NCBI RefSeq assembly: GCF_000025625.1
Contig: NC_013922.1
Location: forward strand, 1,240,001 to 1,304,000
From: Natrialba magadii ATCC 43099
Lineage (GTDB): Archaea > Halobacteriota > Halobacteria > Halobacteriales > Natrialbaceae
DNA length: 64,000 nt
Reading direction: 5' to 3'
This document shows, in pieces, positions 2,879 to 12,476 of this stretch. Under the pieces are notes generated by a model, which saw nothing but the letters and a program-made list of their open reading frames with translations, made no database searches and had not been told where the DNA came from. The translations under genes were made by a program, and so were the position numbers. How positions within the stretch are numbered: position 1 is the first letter of the stretch; each line of letters opens with the position of its first letter.

Positions 2879-3970
2879 TTACTCTGCCTCGGTCCGTGTG
2901 TTCGCGGCCGCGCGTTCGTCGAGTCTGATCCCGGTCTTCTTCAAAATCTGCGTCGAGAACAGCGAGTCCCAGTCTTCGTCCGTGACCTCCCAGTGGCGGC
3001 CCATGGTCTCACGGACCTGTTCGATCCGGCGCTCACTCTCTGCCTCGCTTCGGCCGTGGGTCATCGCGAAGAAGTTGTACGGCCAGACACCTTCGTGGCG
3101 CGGGCGCTCGTAGCAGTGCGTGACGAACGGCAGCGAGGCGACTTCGGGGCCGACCTCGGAGACGAGTTCGTCCGGCACGTTCCAGACTGTCATCCCGTTC
3201 TCCGTGTAGCCGAGTGCGTAGTGGTTCGGCACGACGCCAATGCGTCGGATCTTCCCCTCCTGCTCGAATCGCTTGACCGTTTCGAGCACCCACTCGAGTT
3301 CCTGTCCAATTGCGGCGGCTACGTCGGCGTAGGGTGTCTCGGTGAGCGGCAGGCCGTCCTGGATCTCGAGGACGAGGTCGCGTTCGGCGGGCGACAGCGT
3401 GGATTCGTCGCGTAGTTGGACGTCAGGTCCCAGTTCCGAGAGATCGATGCCGGCGTCCGTCTCGTCCTTGCTGGATCCATCGAGCGGGCCGTCCACGTAG
3501 AACTTTGCCTCGACGCGGAACTCCTGTTGCTTGGGCAAATTGTACGTCTCCTGGCCGGTTTCGTCCTCGATGGCGGCGAGCACCCCGGAGACTCGTTGCT
3601 CATCTGCCACGCTCACGACGAACCAGACGTTGAGATGCGGGTGCTCGCGCTCGTAGTTGTGCGCGACCTCGCGGTGGGCGTTGACCTGCTCGACGACCTC
3701 GTCGAACCGATCGTCGGGGGCGTGCATCGCGACAAGCGTCGCCGCACCGCCGATTTCCTGAGCGTTGACCAGCGGCCCGAACCGGGAGAGGACACCGCGC
3801 TCGTCCAGGTCGCGGATCGTCTCGAGCAGCTCCGTCTCGTCGATATCCACGCCGCCGTCGCGCATGGCGCTTGCAGCAGGTTCGAAGGGGCGTTCCACGA
3901 CGGGGAAGCCACCCTGATAGGCGTTGACGACGGCCCGCTCGCGATCTGTGAGGTCGACGTCGGCGTTCAT
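2879..3970 (-). CDS. siroheme decarboxylase, fused AhbA/AhbB-like (Lrp/AsnC fold)
   Basis: A 363-residue protein made of two tandem Lrp/AsnC-type modules, each with a winged-helix part (residues about 6-60 and 185-245) and an alpha-beta domain (about 75-150 and 250-320). It matches the AhbA/AhbB (NirD/L/G/H) family, which decarboxylates siroheme to 12,18-didecarboxysiroheme in the alternative heme pathway. Family-like segments are HPHLNVWFVV in the first half and the Arg-His ... GVWPYNFFAMTHG stretch in the second. Automated annotation often labels such proteins as transcription regulators. Position upstream of the siroheme-forming gene and hemA supports the enzymatic reading. AhbA and AhbB are separate proteins in the organisms where they were characterised; here they are one chain. 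Confidence 0.85.
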   Translation of the reverse strand: MNADVDLTDRERAVVNAYQGGFPVVERPFEPAASAMRDGGVDIDETELLETIRDLDERGVLSRFGPLVNAQEIGGAATLVAMHAPDDRFDEVVEQVNAHREVAHNYEREHPHLNVWFVVSVADEQRVSGVLAAIEDETGQETYNLPKQQEFRVEAKFYVDGPLDGSSKDETDAGIDLSELGPDVQLRDESTLSPAERDLVLEIQDGLPLTETPYADVAAAIGQELEWVLETVKRFEQEGKIRRIGVVPNHYALGYTENGMTVWNVPDELVSEVGPEVASLPFVTHCYERPRHEGVWPYNFFAMTHGRSEAESERRIEQVRETMGRHWEVTDEDWDSLFSTQILKKTGIRLDERAAANTRTEAE

Positions 3971-4888: not shown

Positions 4889-5293
4889 TTAGTCGCCTTC
4901 GACGCCCGTCACGTCGAAGCCAAGCTCCTCGATATCCGCGAGGATAGCCTCGTGGTCGGCACTCGCCTCGTAGTAGATGACGATGTCGAAACTCCCGTTT
5001 CGAAGCAGTTGCTGGCACTCCCAGACGAACGCCTCGTCCTCGAGTGTGAGTCCCTGGTGCTGGTTCGAGGAAAAGTCCGTGTCGTCGTTGCCCGAGTAGA
5101 CGTAGCAGTCTTTCGGGTCGTGGCCCGAGTGCTCCGCGATGATGTCGCCGGCGTCGATCGTCGCCTGCATCATCTGCACGTCCTCGCTCCCGTCGTACTC
5201 GGTGTGGATGATTGCACCATTGAGTTGGATCTCGCCCGGCTCGAGAAGTGCCTTGGTCCGCCGGTACAGATCGTCGTCGATCGCGTTACTCAT
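4889..5293 (-). CDS. DUF5778-like haloarchaeal protein
   Basis: A 134-residue soluble acidic protein that starts MSNAIDDDLYRRTKALLEPGEIQ. It is rich in acidic residues and contains a central segment (CYVYSGNDDTDFSSNQH) and a C-terminal alpha-beta segment (FDIVIYYEASADHEAILADIEELGF). It resembles a family found only in Halobacteria and named DUF5778, as far as I recall; no biochemical role is known. It is transcribed away from the cis-prenyltransferase gene that begins at 5461, so the 167-nt gap probably holds two promoters. Confidence 0.7.
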   Translation of the reverse strand: MSNAIDDDLYRRTKALLEPGEIQLNGAIIHTEYDGSEDVQMMQATIDAGDIIAEHSGHDPKDCYVYSGNDDTDFSSNQHQGLTLEDEAFVWECQQLLRNGSFDIVIYYEASADHEAILADIEELGFDVTGVEGD

Positions 5294-5460: not shown

Positions 5461-6438
5461 ATGAAGCGGTGGTTTCGTCGACGCGTCGATGCAGCGTACG
5501 AGCGGTTGCTCTCCCGCGAAATTGCCGGTGCCCCCACCCACGTCGCCGTCATTCAGGACGGCAACCGCCGATACGCCCGCCGGAACGGCGGCGACGCCCA
5601 CGAGGGTCATCGCGCCGGAGCCCAGACGACCGAACAGGTACTCGAGTGGTGCCAGGATATCGGCGTCGAGGAACTGACGCTGTACACATTTTCCACGGAG
5701 AACTTCAATCGCCCTGAAGACGAGCGCGAGGCGCTGTACGAACTGCTCTGTGAGAAGTTGACCGAGTTCGCCGATGCCGACCGGGTGCACGACAACGAGG
5801 TCTGTATCCAGGCGATCGGTGAAATCGACCTGCTCCCTGAACACGTCCGGGACGCCGTCGCATATGCCGAGCGCCGCACACAGGAGTACGATCAGTTCGT
5901 ACTCAACATCGCACTCGCCTATGGCGGTCGGTCACGACTGCTCGAAGCCGCTCGCGGCGTCGCAAGAGATGTCGACGCCGACAAAATCGACCCTGGCGAG
6001 ATCGATGTCGGGACGATCGAACAACGGCTATACGATCAGCCGGTTCGAGATGTCGATCTGATTATTCGTCCCGGCGGCGAGGAACGGACATCGAACTTCC
6101 TGCCCTGGCACGCGAACGGCAACGAGGCGGCCGTATTCTTCTGTACGCCCTACTGGCCGGAGTTCTCGAAGGCCGACTTCCTGCGCGGGATTCGAACCTA
6201 CGAACACCGCAAGGAATCCTGGCGGCGCACGCGCGCCCGCCGCGCACTCGCTCTACTCGGTGCAGTCAGCGAGCCGGAATTGACGGAGGCACAGTCCATC
6301 GTCAATCGGTTCCGTGACTCGCTCCCCGTCGGCGAACGACCACCCGGTGCCGACCGAGAACTGACCGGCGTCGCCGATGCCGGTGAGACGACATCGAACG
6401 ACGACGGACTCGACTCGAGTAGCCGGGCGGCCGACTGA
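5461..6438 (+). CDS. uppS: cis-prenyltransferase (undecaprenyl/polyprenyl diphosphate synthase family)
   Basis: A 325-residue member of the UppS family, which elongates allylic diphosphates with isopentenyl diphosphate to make long cis-polyprenyl diphosphates, the lipid carriers for N-glycans. The catalytic N-terminal motif is intact: VIQDGNRRYARRNGG with the essential Asp, followed by HRAG. LYTFSTENFNRPEDE and YGGRSRLLEA follow in the usual order. The C-terminal signature IIRPGGEERTSNFLPW keeps the GGE, Arg and Ser but differs in the next segment (GNEAAVFFCTPYWPEF versus the usual AYAELYFT-x-x-x-WPDF). A disordered acidic tail of about 45 residues ends the protein. A second, degenerate homologue lies 0.9 kb downstream in the opposite orientation. 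Confidence 0.92.
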   Translation: MKRWFRRRVDAAYERLLSREIAGAPTHVAVIQDGNRRYARRNGGDAHEGHRAGAQTTEQVLEWCQDIGVEELTLYTFSTENFNRPEDEREALYELLCEKLTEFADADRVHDNEVCIQAIGEIDLLPEHVRDAVAYAERRTQEYDQFVLNIALAYGGRSRLLEAARGVARDVDADKIDPGEIDVGTIEQRLYDQPVRDVDLIIRPGGEERTSNFLPWHANGNEAAVFFCTPYWPEFSKADFLRGIRTYEHRKESWRRTRARRALALLGAVSEPELTEAQSIVNRFRDSLPVGERPPGADRELTGVADAGETTSNDDGLDSSSRAAD

Positions 6439-6533
6439 GTCGGCAGCCAGGTTCCTGCCGGTCGTCCGACGGGCGACACACCCGATACACGGTCAGGCTC
6501 CGCCACAGACGTGTTAGCCATATTACCAGAAGT

Positions 6534-6545
6534 GTTTTATTAATA
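6534..6545 (+). promoter_or_regulatory. TATA-box-like element for the DUF7344-like gene
   Basis: The A/T-rich run TTTTATTAATA sits about 22-30 nt before the ATG at 6566, the spacing expected for a leaderless haloarchaeal transcript. Confidence 0.55.
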
Positions 6546-6565
6546 AGTATGACAATAGTACCTGA

Positions 6566-6937
6566 ATGTCGTCACACACCGCTCCCGTCGACGTCGAACG
6601 ATTCGTACGGTTGACGGACGTCCCACTCGACGACGTGTACGCGCTTCTCGCGAACGCCCGACTGCGCGTCACGCTCCACGTCCTCTCCGCGTGTGAAGGG
6701 CCCGTTTCGGTTGACTGGATTACCGAAGTCACCAGTCAGTGGGATGACGACCCCCGCGAGACGGTCAAAACAGAACTCGTCCACAACGTCTTGCCGAAAC
6801 TCGACGACTACCAGATACTCGAGTACGATGCGCGGTCGGGCATCGTCCGGATGGACGATCCGGTGGTCGCGTTCGAACATCCACAGTCTGAGTCGCTGTT
6901 AGTATCGGTCACCGACGAGGGCGAGTCGTTCGCCTGA
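6566..6937 (+). CDS. winged-helix protein, DUF7344-like
   Basis: A 123-residue acidic protein resembling the haloarchaeal winged-helix family currently called DUF7344. The recognisable helix-turn-helix region begins at LDDVYALLANARLRVTLHVLSACEGPVSVDWITEV, followed by a predicted wing (LDDYQILEYDARSGIVRMDD). Most members are orphan regulators with unknown targets. It has its own promoter-like element directly upstream and is followed by a long minisatellite rather than another gene. Confidence 0.75.
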   Translation: MSSHTAPVDVERFVRLTDVPLDDVYALLANARLRVTLHVLSACEGPVSVDWITEVTSQWDDDPRETVKTELVHNVLPKLDDYQILEYDARSGIVRMDDPVVAFEHPQSESLLVSVTDEGESFA

Positions 6938-6967
6938 ACCGGGGCGGAAAGTGAGCGTGGAAGCGTG

Positions 6968-7230
6968 AGAGTGAGAGGGTGGGATGTGAGAGTGTGGGAT
7001 GTGAGAGGGTGGGATGTGAGAGTGTGGGATGTGAGAGGGTGGGATGTGAGAGTGTGGGATGTGAGAGGGTGGGATGTGAGAGTGTGGGATGTGAGAGGGT
7101 GGGATGTGAGAGTGTGGGATGTGAGAGGGTGGGATGTGAGAGTGTGGGATGTGAGAGGGTGGGATGTGAGAGTGTGGGATGTGAGAGTGTGGGATGTGAG
7201 AGTGTGGGATGTGAGAGTGTGAGAGTGGGA
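6968..7230. repeat. 15-bp minisatellite, about 16 units
   Basis: The unit is AGAG(G/T)GTGGGATGTG. The variable base alternates G and T for about fourteen units, giving a 30-bp higher-order period, and the last copies are all the T type. The array fills most of the gap between two convergent genes (6937 and 7324). A run of GAATGA/GAATGG-like hexamers follows to about 7255. Open reading frames crossing the array in several frames are artefacts of the repeat. Confidence 0.97.
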
Positions 7231-7323
7231 ATGGGAATGAGAATCAGAATGAGAGAGGAGGTGCAGGCCGCGGGAGGCAGGAGTCGGGTAGCGGAGTCGG
7301 GCAACAGGAGAAACGACAAACGC

Positions 7324-8025
7324 CTAGCGCCCAAACCGACGCGAGCGATTACAGTACTCTCTGACAGCGCGCAGGAAGTCTCGTTTGCGGAAATCGCGCC
7401 AGTTGACGTCGGTAAAATACAGCTCCGAGTAGACGGACTGCCAGATCATGAAATCCGAGAGGCGCTCTGCACCGGTCTTGATGACGAGGTCAGGCTCCGA
7501 GGGGAACACCAGATGATCCTCGACACGGTCGTCGTCGATGTCGTCCGGCTCGAGAGCGCCCGCTTCGACGCCCTCCGCAAGTGTTCGGACCGCGCTCGTG
7601 AACTCGTGTTTCCCGCCGAGGCCGATTCCGATCTGGATCGGTGCGTCCGCTGGATCACGGTCGTCCGGTCCGCGGACGGCAACGTCACGAGGAGCTTCGA
7701 TCGTCTCGAGTTCGCGTCGCAGCGCGGGGACCGCGGCGGCGTCGAGGACGCTGACGTAGACGGTGACGCGCTCGGCGTACTCGAACGCCCAGTCGAAGAA
7801 CTCGATGAGCGTCTCGTAGGCACCGCGTTCGAGGAGGTCCCGTTCGGTGATGACGAGTGCGATATGCTCGGGGAGGGCGGCATCGTCCCGGCTGATTCGA
7901 CGAGCCAGGTAGCGTTCGTACAGTCCCACAGGTCGGCTTCCGCGTCCGATAGTATACAGGTTACGGGTCGTTCTCAGCGTCTGCACAGGCCCAGTCTGGG
8001 GATCGGCGCGGACAGGACCTGTCAC
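7324..8025 (-). CDS. degenerate cis-prenyltransferase homologue (possible NgBR/Nus1-like partner subunit)
   Basis: A 233-residue UppS-family protein. The N-terminal catalytic motif is absent: where active enzymes have VIxDGNRR, this reads HIALVITERDLLE. The FSTEN segment is replaced by VYVSVLDAAAV and YGGR by GLGGKHEF. The C-terminal half is nearly canonical: DLVIKTGAERLSDFMIW, then SELYFTDVNWRDFRKRDFLRAVREY, containing the RLS that binds the IPP diphosphate. This is the mirror image of the other homologue at 5461, whose N-terminus is canonical and whose C-terminus deviates. Inference: the two may act as a hetero-oligomer, as in eukaryotic DHDDS/NgBR and a reported Methanosarcina enzyme. It is divergent from the DUF92 gene with a 66-nt shared gap. 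Confidence 0.82.
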   Translation of the reverse strand: MTGPVRADPQTGPVQTLRTTRNLYTIGRGSRPVGLYERYLARRISRDDAALPEHIALVITERDLLERGAYETLIEFFDWAFEYAERVTVYVSVLDAAAVPALRRELETIEAPRDVAVRGPDDRDPADAPIQIGIGLGGKHEFTSAVRTLAEGVEAGALEPDDIDDDRVEDHLVFPSEPDLVIKTGAERLSDFMIWQSVYSELYFTDVNWRDFRKRDFLRAVREYCNRSRRFGR

Positions 8026-8091
8026 CCGTGAAACGAGGCGGCGGCGTGTTCGGGAACCTTCAAGTAACCGCCACAGAAAGACACCGATATC

Positions 8092-9435
8092 GTGACATCA
8101 CCCGTTCGGCGAGCCAGCGTCTTCGCGGCGCTGAGTACGCTGTCGCTCGCCGTGCCGCTCGCTGGGCTCGAGGTCGCGACCGCTCTCGCAGCGGCGGTCT
8201 TACTCGGCGCGTTCCTCGTCACGGATGGGCCGCTCTTCGAGCTGGTCGCCTACCCCGGTGACTACGAGGACCGCCGCCTCTACGGCCTCATTACGTTCGT
8301 TCTCGCAGCCGTCGCCCTCGGACTCGTTGCCGTCAATTCCTCGATGACACTCGCCGTCTTCGTCGGCACCGTCCTCCTCGTCGGCTACGGCAACCTCGCA
8401 GAACGGCTCGTCCGCGCCCGCTCCGACAGCGACGTGCTCGCCGTCACTGCGTTCTGTCTCGTCGCGACCGTCGCCGCAGCCCTCGGACAACTCGTGACGC
8501 TGGCCGCAGCGGCAGGCGAAGCGGCGACCGTACTCGAGTCCGCCCTGCCGAGCGTGCTCTTTCTCGCAGCCAGCGGTGCGCTTCTCGCGGCACTCTTGCG
8601 TGACGTGTTCCTGATCTACGACGATCCGGTCGTCATGCTCTCGGTCGGCTTCCTGCTCTGGCTGCTCACGGAACTCGATCCCGGACTTGGCACCGTCGAC
8701 ATCATCGTCGCACTCGCGATCACCGCCCTGTTGGGATACGTGTCGTACGCACTCGAGACAGCCTCCATCGCGGGTATGATCACCGGCGTCCTTCTCGGGT
8801 TGCTCACCATCGTCCTCGGCGGCTACGCCTGGTTTGCCGTCCTCATCGCCTTCTTCGGTGTCGGCGGCCTCTCGACGAAGTTCCGTTACGGCCGCAAGGA
8901 GGAACTCGGTGTCGCCGAGGACAACAACGGTGCCCGCGGCAGCGGGAACGTCCTCGGTAACGCCGCCGTCGCCATCGCGGCTGTCCTCGGCTACGCCGCG
9001 AGTTCGGCCGACCTGTTGCCGGTCACCGTCGATCTCTTCCTGTTCGCCTTTGCCGGCTCCGTCGCGACTGCCATGAGCGACACCCTCTCGAGTGAGGTCG
9101 GAAGCGTCTTCGAAACGCCGCGGTTGATCACCACGCTCGAGCCGGTCGAGCCGGGAACAGACGGCGGCATCACCTGGCAGGGTGAGGTGGCTGGCCTCAC
9201 CGGTGCGGCCATCGTCGGCGGGCTGAGCTACCTGCTCTTTCCGGCTGTCGGAGCCGTCGGCGCAGCGATTATCGTCGCGGCCGGCTTCGTCGGGATGACC
9301 GTCGACAGTCTCCTCGGCGCGACACTCGAGGGAACGCTGCTCGGCAATCAAGGTGTTAACTTCCTCGCGACGCTCTCCGGTGCAATCGTCTGTGCGGTGT
9401 TGTTGATGCTATTCTCGACTGCTGTGCTCGGCTGA
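8092..9435 (+). CDS. DUF92 family membrane protein (VTE6/TMEM19-like, possible polyprenyl-phosphate kinase)
   Basis: A 447-residue polytopic membrane protein starting at a GTG. The first half has about six hydrophobic helices. The second half is the DUF92 domain: FGVGGLSTKFRYGRKEELGVAE, GARGSGNVLGNAAVA, FAGSVATAMSDTLSSEVG, ETPRLITTLEPVEPGTDGG and a final helix ending in GNQGVNFLATLSGA. Plant VTE6 in this family phosphorylates phytyl phosphate, and the family is related to CTP-dependent polyprenol kinases. Its divergent pairing with a cis-prenyltransferase homologue suggests a role in making or salvaging polyprenyl phosphates for glycosylation or lipid synthesis. That is inference from context. 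Confidence 0.85.
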   Translation: MTSPVRRASVFAALSTLSLAVPLAGLEVATALAAAVLLGAFLVTDGPLFELVAYPGDYEDRRLYGLITFVLAAVALGLVAVNSSMTLAVFVGTVLLVGYGNLAERLVRARSDSDVLAVTAFCLVATVAAALGQLVTLAAAAGEAATVLESALPSVLFLAASGALLAALLRDVFLIYDDPVVMLSVGFLLWLLTELDPGLGTVDIIVALAITALLGYVSYALETASIAGMITGVLLGLLTIVLGGYAWFAVLIAFFGVGGLSTKFRYGRKEELGVAEDNNGARGSGNVLGNAAVAIAAVLGYAASSADLLPVTVDLFLFAFAGSVATAMSDTLSSEVGSVFETPRLITTLEPVEPGTDGGITWQGEVAGLTGAAIVGGLSYLLFPAVGAVGAAIIVAAGFVGMTVDSLLGATLEGTLLGNQGVNFLATLSGAIVCAVLLMLFSTAVLG

Positions 9436-10800: not shown

Positions 10801-12276
10801 TTAGCTCGGTGGCTCGCTTGCCACATCCTCGATCGCGTGGATCTGCACACCCGACGGTCGCTTGGTGAACTGCCCGAGCGACCGCGCAATGATTCGTTCG
10901 ACACCGCGGTCGGCCGCCAGATCGAGAATTTGCTGGCTGAGAATTCCATCGAGGATGATCGTCGTCGGCGTCGTCTCGAGTGCTTCGAGCTCGTCAAAGA
11001 CATCACTCGCCGACGTTTCCTCGAGTACGTCGTTGTCGCCGTCGAGGAATCGGGCGCGGTCTGTGTCCGCGCGGATGATCGCAGTCGCGTGCTCGTAGAC
11101 TGTGTCGAGGTCGTTCGGATCCGACTCGGCGTCCGGCGCTGATTCGGGCTGTTGGTTGCGTTGTCGTTGCCGTTGTCGGTGTTGCCGTTGTCCTTGTTGT
11201 CGGTGTTGACCATCTGCCCCGGAGTGATCTGCGTCTCCCCTCGGTGTCGTTGCATCCGCGGTCTCTGCTGTAGCCGTCGCAGAATCGGGCGAATCCACGT
11301 TTGCACTCGCACGTTCAGTCTGGTCGGTCGCTCCAGCAGCCTCTGCAGACTCTGACTCGGCCGATTCGATCTGCGTTCCGCTGCGGGCGAGGCCGGTCTT
11401 GGCGTCCGTTCGGGACGGTGCCGGACTCGAGCTACCGTCTGTCGCGGCGACGGCCTCCCGCGGCTCGTTCAGCCCGGAGACAGTGTCGTAGGGGACCTTG
11501 TTCCGAAGCGACGCGAACAGCTGGTGGTGGTCGAGTTCCTCGACCGAGGTTCCGGACGGAGCGAACGCGACGTAGTCGATATCGCCGACCTGAGAGAGTT
11601 CTTCGAGAATGAGATCACCACCCCGGTCACCGTCGAGAAAGGCCGTGACGGTCCGGTGGTTCGTGAGTTCGGCGACGGCGTCGGGGACGTTCGTCCCCTC
11701 GACGGCGATGGCATTTTTCACGCCGTACTTGAGCAGCGTCAGTACGTCTGAACGTCCCTCGACGACGATGATGGCGTCGCTGTCTGTGACGCGCGGGCCG
11801 GCCGGCAACCCTTCGTACTCGGTGATATCCTCGACGCGGACGTGCTGGCGGACCTCCGCGAGAATCTCCTCGGAGGACATGACGGAATCGTCAAAGCCAG
11901 TCCGCAGGAGTTCCTTCGCACGGTCGACGACTTCCTTTCGCTTGGCCGCTCGAACGTCTTCGATTTCGCGGACCTCGAGTGTCGCGCGACATGGGCCGAC
12001 GCGAGAGATGGTTTCGAGGGAGGCGGCGAGCGTCGCTGTTTCGACCTTGTCCAGGCTGGTCGCGATGGTGACGCTGCCGTGGGACTGGCCCTGTGTGCTT
12101 GCGATTTCGACGTCAATGCGTCCGACTTTTTGTGACTGACGGAGATCGCGCAGATCGAGTTCGTCGCCGAGGAGGCCTTCGGTCTGGCCGAAGATCGCAC
12201 CGACGACGTCGCTGCGCTCGACGACCCCGTCAGCCGTGACGTCCGCGTGAATGAGGTATTTCGAGGTGTCTTCCAT
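10801..12276 (-). CDS. dnaG: archaeal DnaG primase-like protein
   Basis: A 491-residue protein of the archaeal DnaG family, which has a TOPRIM domain. It has been linked to primase activity and, in other archaea, to the exosome. The N-terminus MEDTSKYLIHADVTADGVVERSDVVGAIFGQTEGLLGDEL is the family signature and fixes the start at 12276. The TOPRIM core reads IIVVEGRSDVLTLLKYG, then TVTAFLDGDRGGDLILEEL, with the acidic catalytic residues present. Residues about 300-410 are a low-complexity linker whose Gln/Arg/His-rich segment is encoded by 6-nt repeats (about 11150-11210). The conserved C-terminal domain (TTIILDGILSQQILDLAADRGVERIIA) ends the protein. Confidence 0.93.
   Translation of the reverse strand: MEDTSKYLIHADVTADGVVERSDVVGAIFGQTEGLLGDELDLRDLRQSQKVGRIDVEIASTQGQSHGSVTIATSLDKVETATLAASLETISRVGPCRATLEVREIEDVRAAKRKEVVDRAKELLRTGFDDSVMSSEEILAEVRQHVRVEDITEYEGLPAGPRVTDSDAIIVVEGRSDVLTLLKYGVKNAIAVEGTNVPDAVAELTNHRTVTAFLDGDRGGDLILEELSQVGDIDYVAFAPSGTSVEELDHHQLFASLRNKVPYDTVSGLNEPREAVAATDGSSSPAPSRTDAKTGLARSGTQIESAESESAEAAGATDQTERASANVDSPDSATATAETADATTPRGDADHSGADGQHRQQGQRQHRQRQRQRNQQPESAPDAESDPNDLDTVYEHATAIIRADTDRARFLDGDNDVLEETSASDVFDELEALETTPTTIILDGILSQQILDLAADRGVERIIARSLGQFTKRPSGVQIHAIEDVASEPPS
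11150..11212 (-). repeat. in-frame 3/6-nt repeat in the dnaG linker
   Basis: Repeats built on GTTGTC/GTTGCC/GTTGTT encode a run of Gln, Arg, His and Asn on the minus strand. This is a basic, polar tract inside an otherwise acidic protein. Confidence 0.7.
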
Positions 12277-12476
12277 GGGAGATCTGCCCCAGACGGGGCG
12301 CGGTGACGCGAGAGTCGCGTGCAGAGACCGGGTTAGTGAAGATTTGGGTCGTGAACGGCAAATAGCTGTTGACATTCGGGGCCGTTGTGGGGTTCGGAGA
12401 CTGAACGAGTGGCCACGGTGCTGTCTGTCACTGTCAGTGGAGCCGAGAGCAGACAAACCCAATCAGTTGCCGAGCG

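Follow-up and report, generated by a model that had tools for sequence, protein, structure and literature searches.

Two genes in the 64,000-nucleotide window analyzed here (G000, contig C1, positions 1240001-1304000 of the Natrialba magadii genome) very probably encode the subunits of one heteromeric cis-polyprenyl diphosphate synthase, in which the C-terminal RxG tail of one subunit, B, would complete the active site of the other, A. The host belongs to the Halobacteria, and its genome assembly (four contigs, 99.9% complete) contains exactly two genes that match PF01255 in a profile search, A and B. Subunit A (5461-6438, plus strand; 325 amino acids) is the putative catalytic cis-prenyltransferase, with a role like that of DHDDS. 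It matches TIGR00055 as well as PF01255 and spans positions 1-216 of the 219 in the PF01255 profile (E 1e-66, 225 bits, cut-off 27). Subunit B (7324-7929, minus strand; 201 amino acids) is the putative non-catalytic, RxG-donating subunit, with a role like that of NgBR, and matches only profile positions 117-219 (E 1e-25, 91 bits, cut-off 27). The open reading frame (ORF) of B is open to 8025, and GTG 7929 is the likely start given that homologue alignments begin at VGLYERY. An initial annotation, made from the DNA sequence, had proposed that the two proteins form a hetero-oligomeric polyprenyl synthase; this proposal is now supported by complementary motif loss, by co-occurrence across 292 genomes, by gene order and by structure models.

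The conserved elements of the family are divided between the two proteins. A carries DGNRR and FSTEN, has an altered C-terminal segment (RTSNFLPWHANGNEAAVFFC..) and is without a terminal RxG, whereas B is without DGN and FSTEN, retains GAERLSDFMIWQ..ELYFTDVNW and ends in RRFGR. Both ORFs and this pattern of loss and retention had been described correctly in the initial annotation, in which the terminal RRFGR of B went unmentioned. Motifs were counted in 110 A-type proteins, 78 B-type proteins and 54 showing a third pattern; the latter are full-length and are defined by an RxG-x end (RxG plus one residue). The loci that supplied these sets belong to Halobacteriota, to Asgard archaea and to archaea of other groups. 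DGN was found in 110/110 A-type, 0/78 B-type and 53/54 third-pattern proteins. A C-terminal RxG plus one residue was observed in none of the 110 A-type proteins and in 77 of the 78 B-type proteins, the remaining B ending in KFGK. Chance does not account for the split, as both patterns are seen again in virtually all genomes of the class and in nearly the whole phylum sample.

Enzymes read from archaea outside Halobacteriota all end in RxG-x, with the exception of an extra copy in Thermoplasmatota (L310). These enzymes therefore hold in one chain both of the elements that in Halobacteriota are divided between A and B. The same distinction applies to homodimeric UppS, which resembles the pair in fold and in its DGN(R) and RxG elements but has both elements on a single polypeptide. 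In A, the RxG-x end of single-copy enzymes would fall in the C-terminal part, from about residue 240 (6178-6438, plus strand). In B, the RFGR codons and stop (7324-7338, minus strand) encode the tail that, judged by motif conservation, is proposed to complete the A active site.

In the human heteromer, R205, R211 and S213 of DHDDS hold the phosphate at the isopentenyl diphosphate site, and the NgBR element that crosses over is the C-terminal RxG tail (PMC7573591). The equivalent residues of A, R203, R209 and S211, are conserved in 46/46 aligned sequences, as are D33, R36, R37 and N81. A reads RTS in place of RLS, and within this motif the middle residue alone varies (T 26, L 12, V 5; n = 46). 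Across the phylum, the RLS of B drifts (R 32/45, S 28/45), with EIPEF or DTVLSDV in its place in some families. By contrast, the RxG of B hardly varies (R 44/45, G 45/45), and its spacing to the end of the protein, RxG plus one residue, is that of the NgBR tail (R290-L-G-K293). On these comparisons, the RxG tail appears to be the part of B that selection keeps.

These data bear on the possibility that the RLS segment of B, rather than its tail, completes the A active site, the corresponding segment of A being defective. The initial annotation leaned toward this arrangement, which draws support from the retention of GAERLSDFMIW in B and from RTS in place of RLS in A. The segment of A is indeed altered, but the defect does not extend to its RLS equivalent, given that R203, R209 and S211 are present in 46/46 sequences. 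Since A keeps its own substrate-binding residues, including these three, it does not depend on the RLS of B. Action of RLS in trans was rejected because that motif decays across the phylum, and is lost altogether in some families, while the RxG tail remains; we consider it highly improbable.

It is also very unlikely, if somewhat less so, that A functions alone as a homodimer and that B is a separate scaffold or regulator adding nothing to the active site. Such a role for B would be in keeping with the presence in A of every substrate-binding residue and with the weak activity of human DHDDS by itself (PMC7573591). However, the RxG tail of B stays conserved while the remainder of the protein decays, and A is without the RxG that, bar the Thermoplasmatota copy, is kept by the single-copy archaeal enzymes read. 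Nor does B look like a membrane anchor, given that no transmembrane segment (a 19-residue hydropathy window above 1.6) was detected in B or in its 78 homologues (0/78).

Predicted folds were obtained for both proteins. The model of A (predicted local distance difference test score, pLDDT, 87) has human DHDDS (7pax_A) as its best Foldseek match and aligns with UppS structures at Z 29.6 (root mean square deviation, rmsd, 1.9; 234 residues aligned). Past the catalytic domain, residues 237-268 are predicted to form a long helix that leads through a turn into a further helix (271-287), and a disordered tail follows. In the model, the two helices appear to occupy the place of the homodimer tail. B is predicted to adopt the cis-prenyltransferase subunit fold (pLDDT 87), with Z of about 15 against UppS structures (rmsd 2.9, 182 aligned) and likewise about 15 against DHDDS. 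Its alignment with NgBR (6z1n_B; Z 13.9, rmsd 4.0) covers 177 residues and reaches the end of B.

A working scheme for the heteromer can be outlined on this basis. The A/B complex would make the carrier-lipid (archaeal dolichol) chain, with A binding the allylic starter and isopentenyl diphosphate and performing the chemistry in its own complete site (D33, R36/R37, R203, R209 and S211). B, having presumably lost catalysis and kept the same subunit fold, would bind A through the usual dimer interface. Its C-terminal RFG-R tail would then enter the A active site and substitute for the RxG tail that A has lost.

The co-occurrence of A and B in Halobacteria, on which the initial annotation had made the pairing depend, is borne out: among the 292 genomes searched, B was found in 292 and A in 291. 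In the sole genome without A (G071), the gene that lies upstream of A in a relative occupies bases 72-916 of a contig and is oriented such that A would point off the contig end. A true loss was therefore rejected, and the missing A is most likely an assembly gap. Apparent damage to B in another genome (G235) was dismissed because the gene runs into a contig end. In a phylum sample of 90 Halobacteriota genomes, PF01255-family matches were found in 84, each with at least two. The six genomes without a match comprise one that is 76% complete and five of family f18 (G298, G307, G316, G325 and G332; 75-91% complete), in which no cis-prenyltransferase was found. In sampled archaea outside Halobacteriota the matches are full-length, running to the end of the profile, and most genomes have a single one. 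Similarly, 70 of the 79 Asgard genomes searched have a match, full-length and mostly single. No half-profile B was detected in the sampled non-Halobacteriota archaea or in the 79 Asgard genomes.

Gene order is also conserved. Next to B in the window, and divergent from it, lies a gene for an integral membrane protein of the DUF92/VTE6-like type (8092-9435, plus strand), an assignment made at the outset and upheld by the PF01940 match (E 7e-58, 196 bits, cut-off 27.5). Wherever A and B are neighbors within 6 kb in the phylum sample, they are arranged tail-to-tail (31/31), and wherever B and DUF92 are neighbors within 3 kb, they are divergent (36/36). The full order, A> <B DUF92>, was observed in 42 of 59 halobacterial loci. 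The linkage of B to DUF92 is kept in families in which A has moved away (f15, f19 and f27), and that of A to B survives the relocation of DUF92 (f14, f21, f28 and f29).

An archaeal heteromeric cis-prenyltransferase is already known from Methanosarcina mazei, in which MM_0618 and MM_1083 are described as forming one enzyme that makes C45-50 chains (Emi et al. 2019, as related in PMC8131916). The present pair would be alike in that two cis-prenyltransferase paralogues act as one enzyme that makes a carrier lipid. Three matches were found in Methanosarcina sp. G394, namely A, B and a third, full-length copy. In a related genome (G311), the corresponding third copy (L125) is the orthologue of MM_0014 (E 5e-80). 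MM_0014 was accordingly rejected as a homologue of A or B and represents a third, separate type. If the third copy of G394 is of the MM_0014 type, as in G311, A and B would, by elimination, be of the MM_0618 and MM_1083 types, i.e. an orthologous pair. In the family that holds the MM_0014-type genome (f13), A and B are unlinked, unlike the tail-to-tail neighbors of the window. To the M. mazei precedent, the present analysis adds conservation across the phylum, the evidence that distinguishes RxG from RLS and the linkage to DUF92.

Several observations weigh against an A/B heteromer completed by the B tail. The A protein of one locus (L152, 8021-8809, family f29) ends in RAGE, which may be a remnant or a chance RxG tail; the RxG-x rule had drawn this protein into the third-pattern set, and it was returned to A for the trees. 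Orthology of A and B to MM_0618 and MM_1083 is reached by elimination, and the structure predictions are of monomers. A and B are convergent, so they do not form an operon and are not co-transcribed; conservation of their order must reflect something besides co-transcription. Finally, in several Halobacteria two or three copies of A accompany one B (G067, G104, G147 and G225 have one B each). The pairing is thus not strictly 1:1, which suggests that a single B may serve more than one catalytic subunit. Another genome, G194, has two A and two B.

Phylogenetic trees place A in one clade (support 100/96) and B in one clade (100/99, bar one very long branch), each apart from the single-copy archaeal enzymes. 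A single clade of A plus B was not rejected in an approximately unbiased (AU) test (p 0.349), and A, B and related genes largely follow the species tree. These results are consistent with a pair that arose when a gene was duplicated, at the base of Halobacteriota or earlier, and the two copies underwent complementary losses.

The eukaryotic heteromers (DHDDS/NgBR, Rer2/Nus1, CPT/LEW1) are similar in having one subunit that is non-catalytic and resembles the family only C-terminally, and human NgBR shares with B the RxG plus one residue at its end. NgBR/Nus1 differs in its N-terminal membrane anchor, B having no transmembrane segment. Descent of the halobacterial pair and DHDDS/NgBR from one ancestral heteromer would accord with the AU test, which does not reject a clade of A and DHDDS (p 0.416), and with DHDDS being the top Protein Data Bank match of the A profile. 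In the best tree, however, human DHDDS lies outside the A clade, and the B profile favors bacterial UppS homodimers (up to 126 bits) over NgBR (51 bits). In addition, no B-like half gene was found in 79 Asgard genomes or in the sampled non-Halobacteriota archaea, and it is on this absence of B, not on the tree, that a parallel origin rests. Common descent is thus unlikely, and the halobacterial pair and the eukaryotic heteromer probably have separate origins.

The role of the DUF92 protein is less certain. VTE6, which belongs to PF01940, is likened to it on account of the shared family, the DUF92 neighbor being a PF01940 membrane protein. In plants and algae, VTE6 is a phytyl-phosphate kinase that acts on an isoprenyl phosphate (PMC7580956). 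For the archaeal DUF92 branch, no activity is reported in the literature found. It is conceivable, although we would not presume it, that the DUF92 protein acts on polyprenyl phosphate, as the initial annotation proposed, which would fit its divergent linkage to B. DUF92 is present in 89/90 genomes of the phylum sample, including all five f18 genomes. Because these five have DUF92 although no cis-prenyltransferase was detected in them, the DUF92 protein may act on a different isoprenyl phosphate. The fuller proposition, that the carrier-lipid synthase divided into a catalytic and an RxG-donating subunit a single time at the base of Halobacteriota, separately from the split in eukaryotes, and that DUF92 is the next enzyme to handle the polyprenyl (di)phosphate in dolichol phosphate synthesis, is rather doubtful when taken as a whole.

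Other features of the region were also noted. A 15-bp tandem repeat, GTGAGAGTGTGGGAT, occupies window positions 6971-7221 (16.7 copies, 94% matches), between a DUF7344 gene and the 3' end of B, and gives rise to spurious repetitive ORFs. On the minus strand, one ORF (2879-3970) matches both AhbA and AhbB of siroheme decarboxylase (NCBIfam equivalogs) as a natural fusion, and this ORF is a neighbor of the A-B locus in 28 of 59 halobacterial loci. A DUF5778 gene (4889-5293, minus strand) lies near A in 40/59 loci. An ORF read from its sequence as a DnaG-type primase (10801-12462, minus strand) lies beyond DUF92, again in 40/59. A scan for sigma-70 promoters found nothing, the expected outcome in an archaeon.

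In summary, the A/B pair gives a name to a probable enzyme for the carrier lipid of protein glycosylation in haloarchaea and in nearly all of the sampled phylum, for which two genes would be needed. Expression of the gene annotated as 'UppS' by itself would be expected to yield weak activity. The pair may serve to model a DHDDS/NgBR-like arrangement that has no membrane anchor, and it suggests that one active site was divided between two chains twice. DUF92 is a concrete candidate for a step in the making of archaeal dolichol phosphate, testable in genetically tractable haloarchaea.
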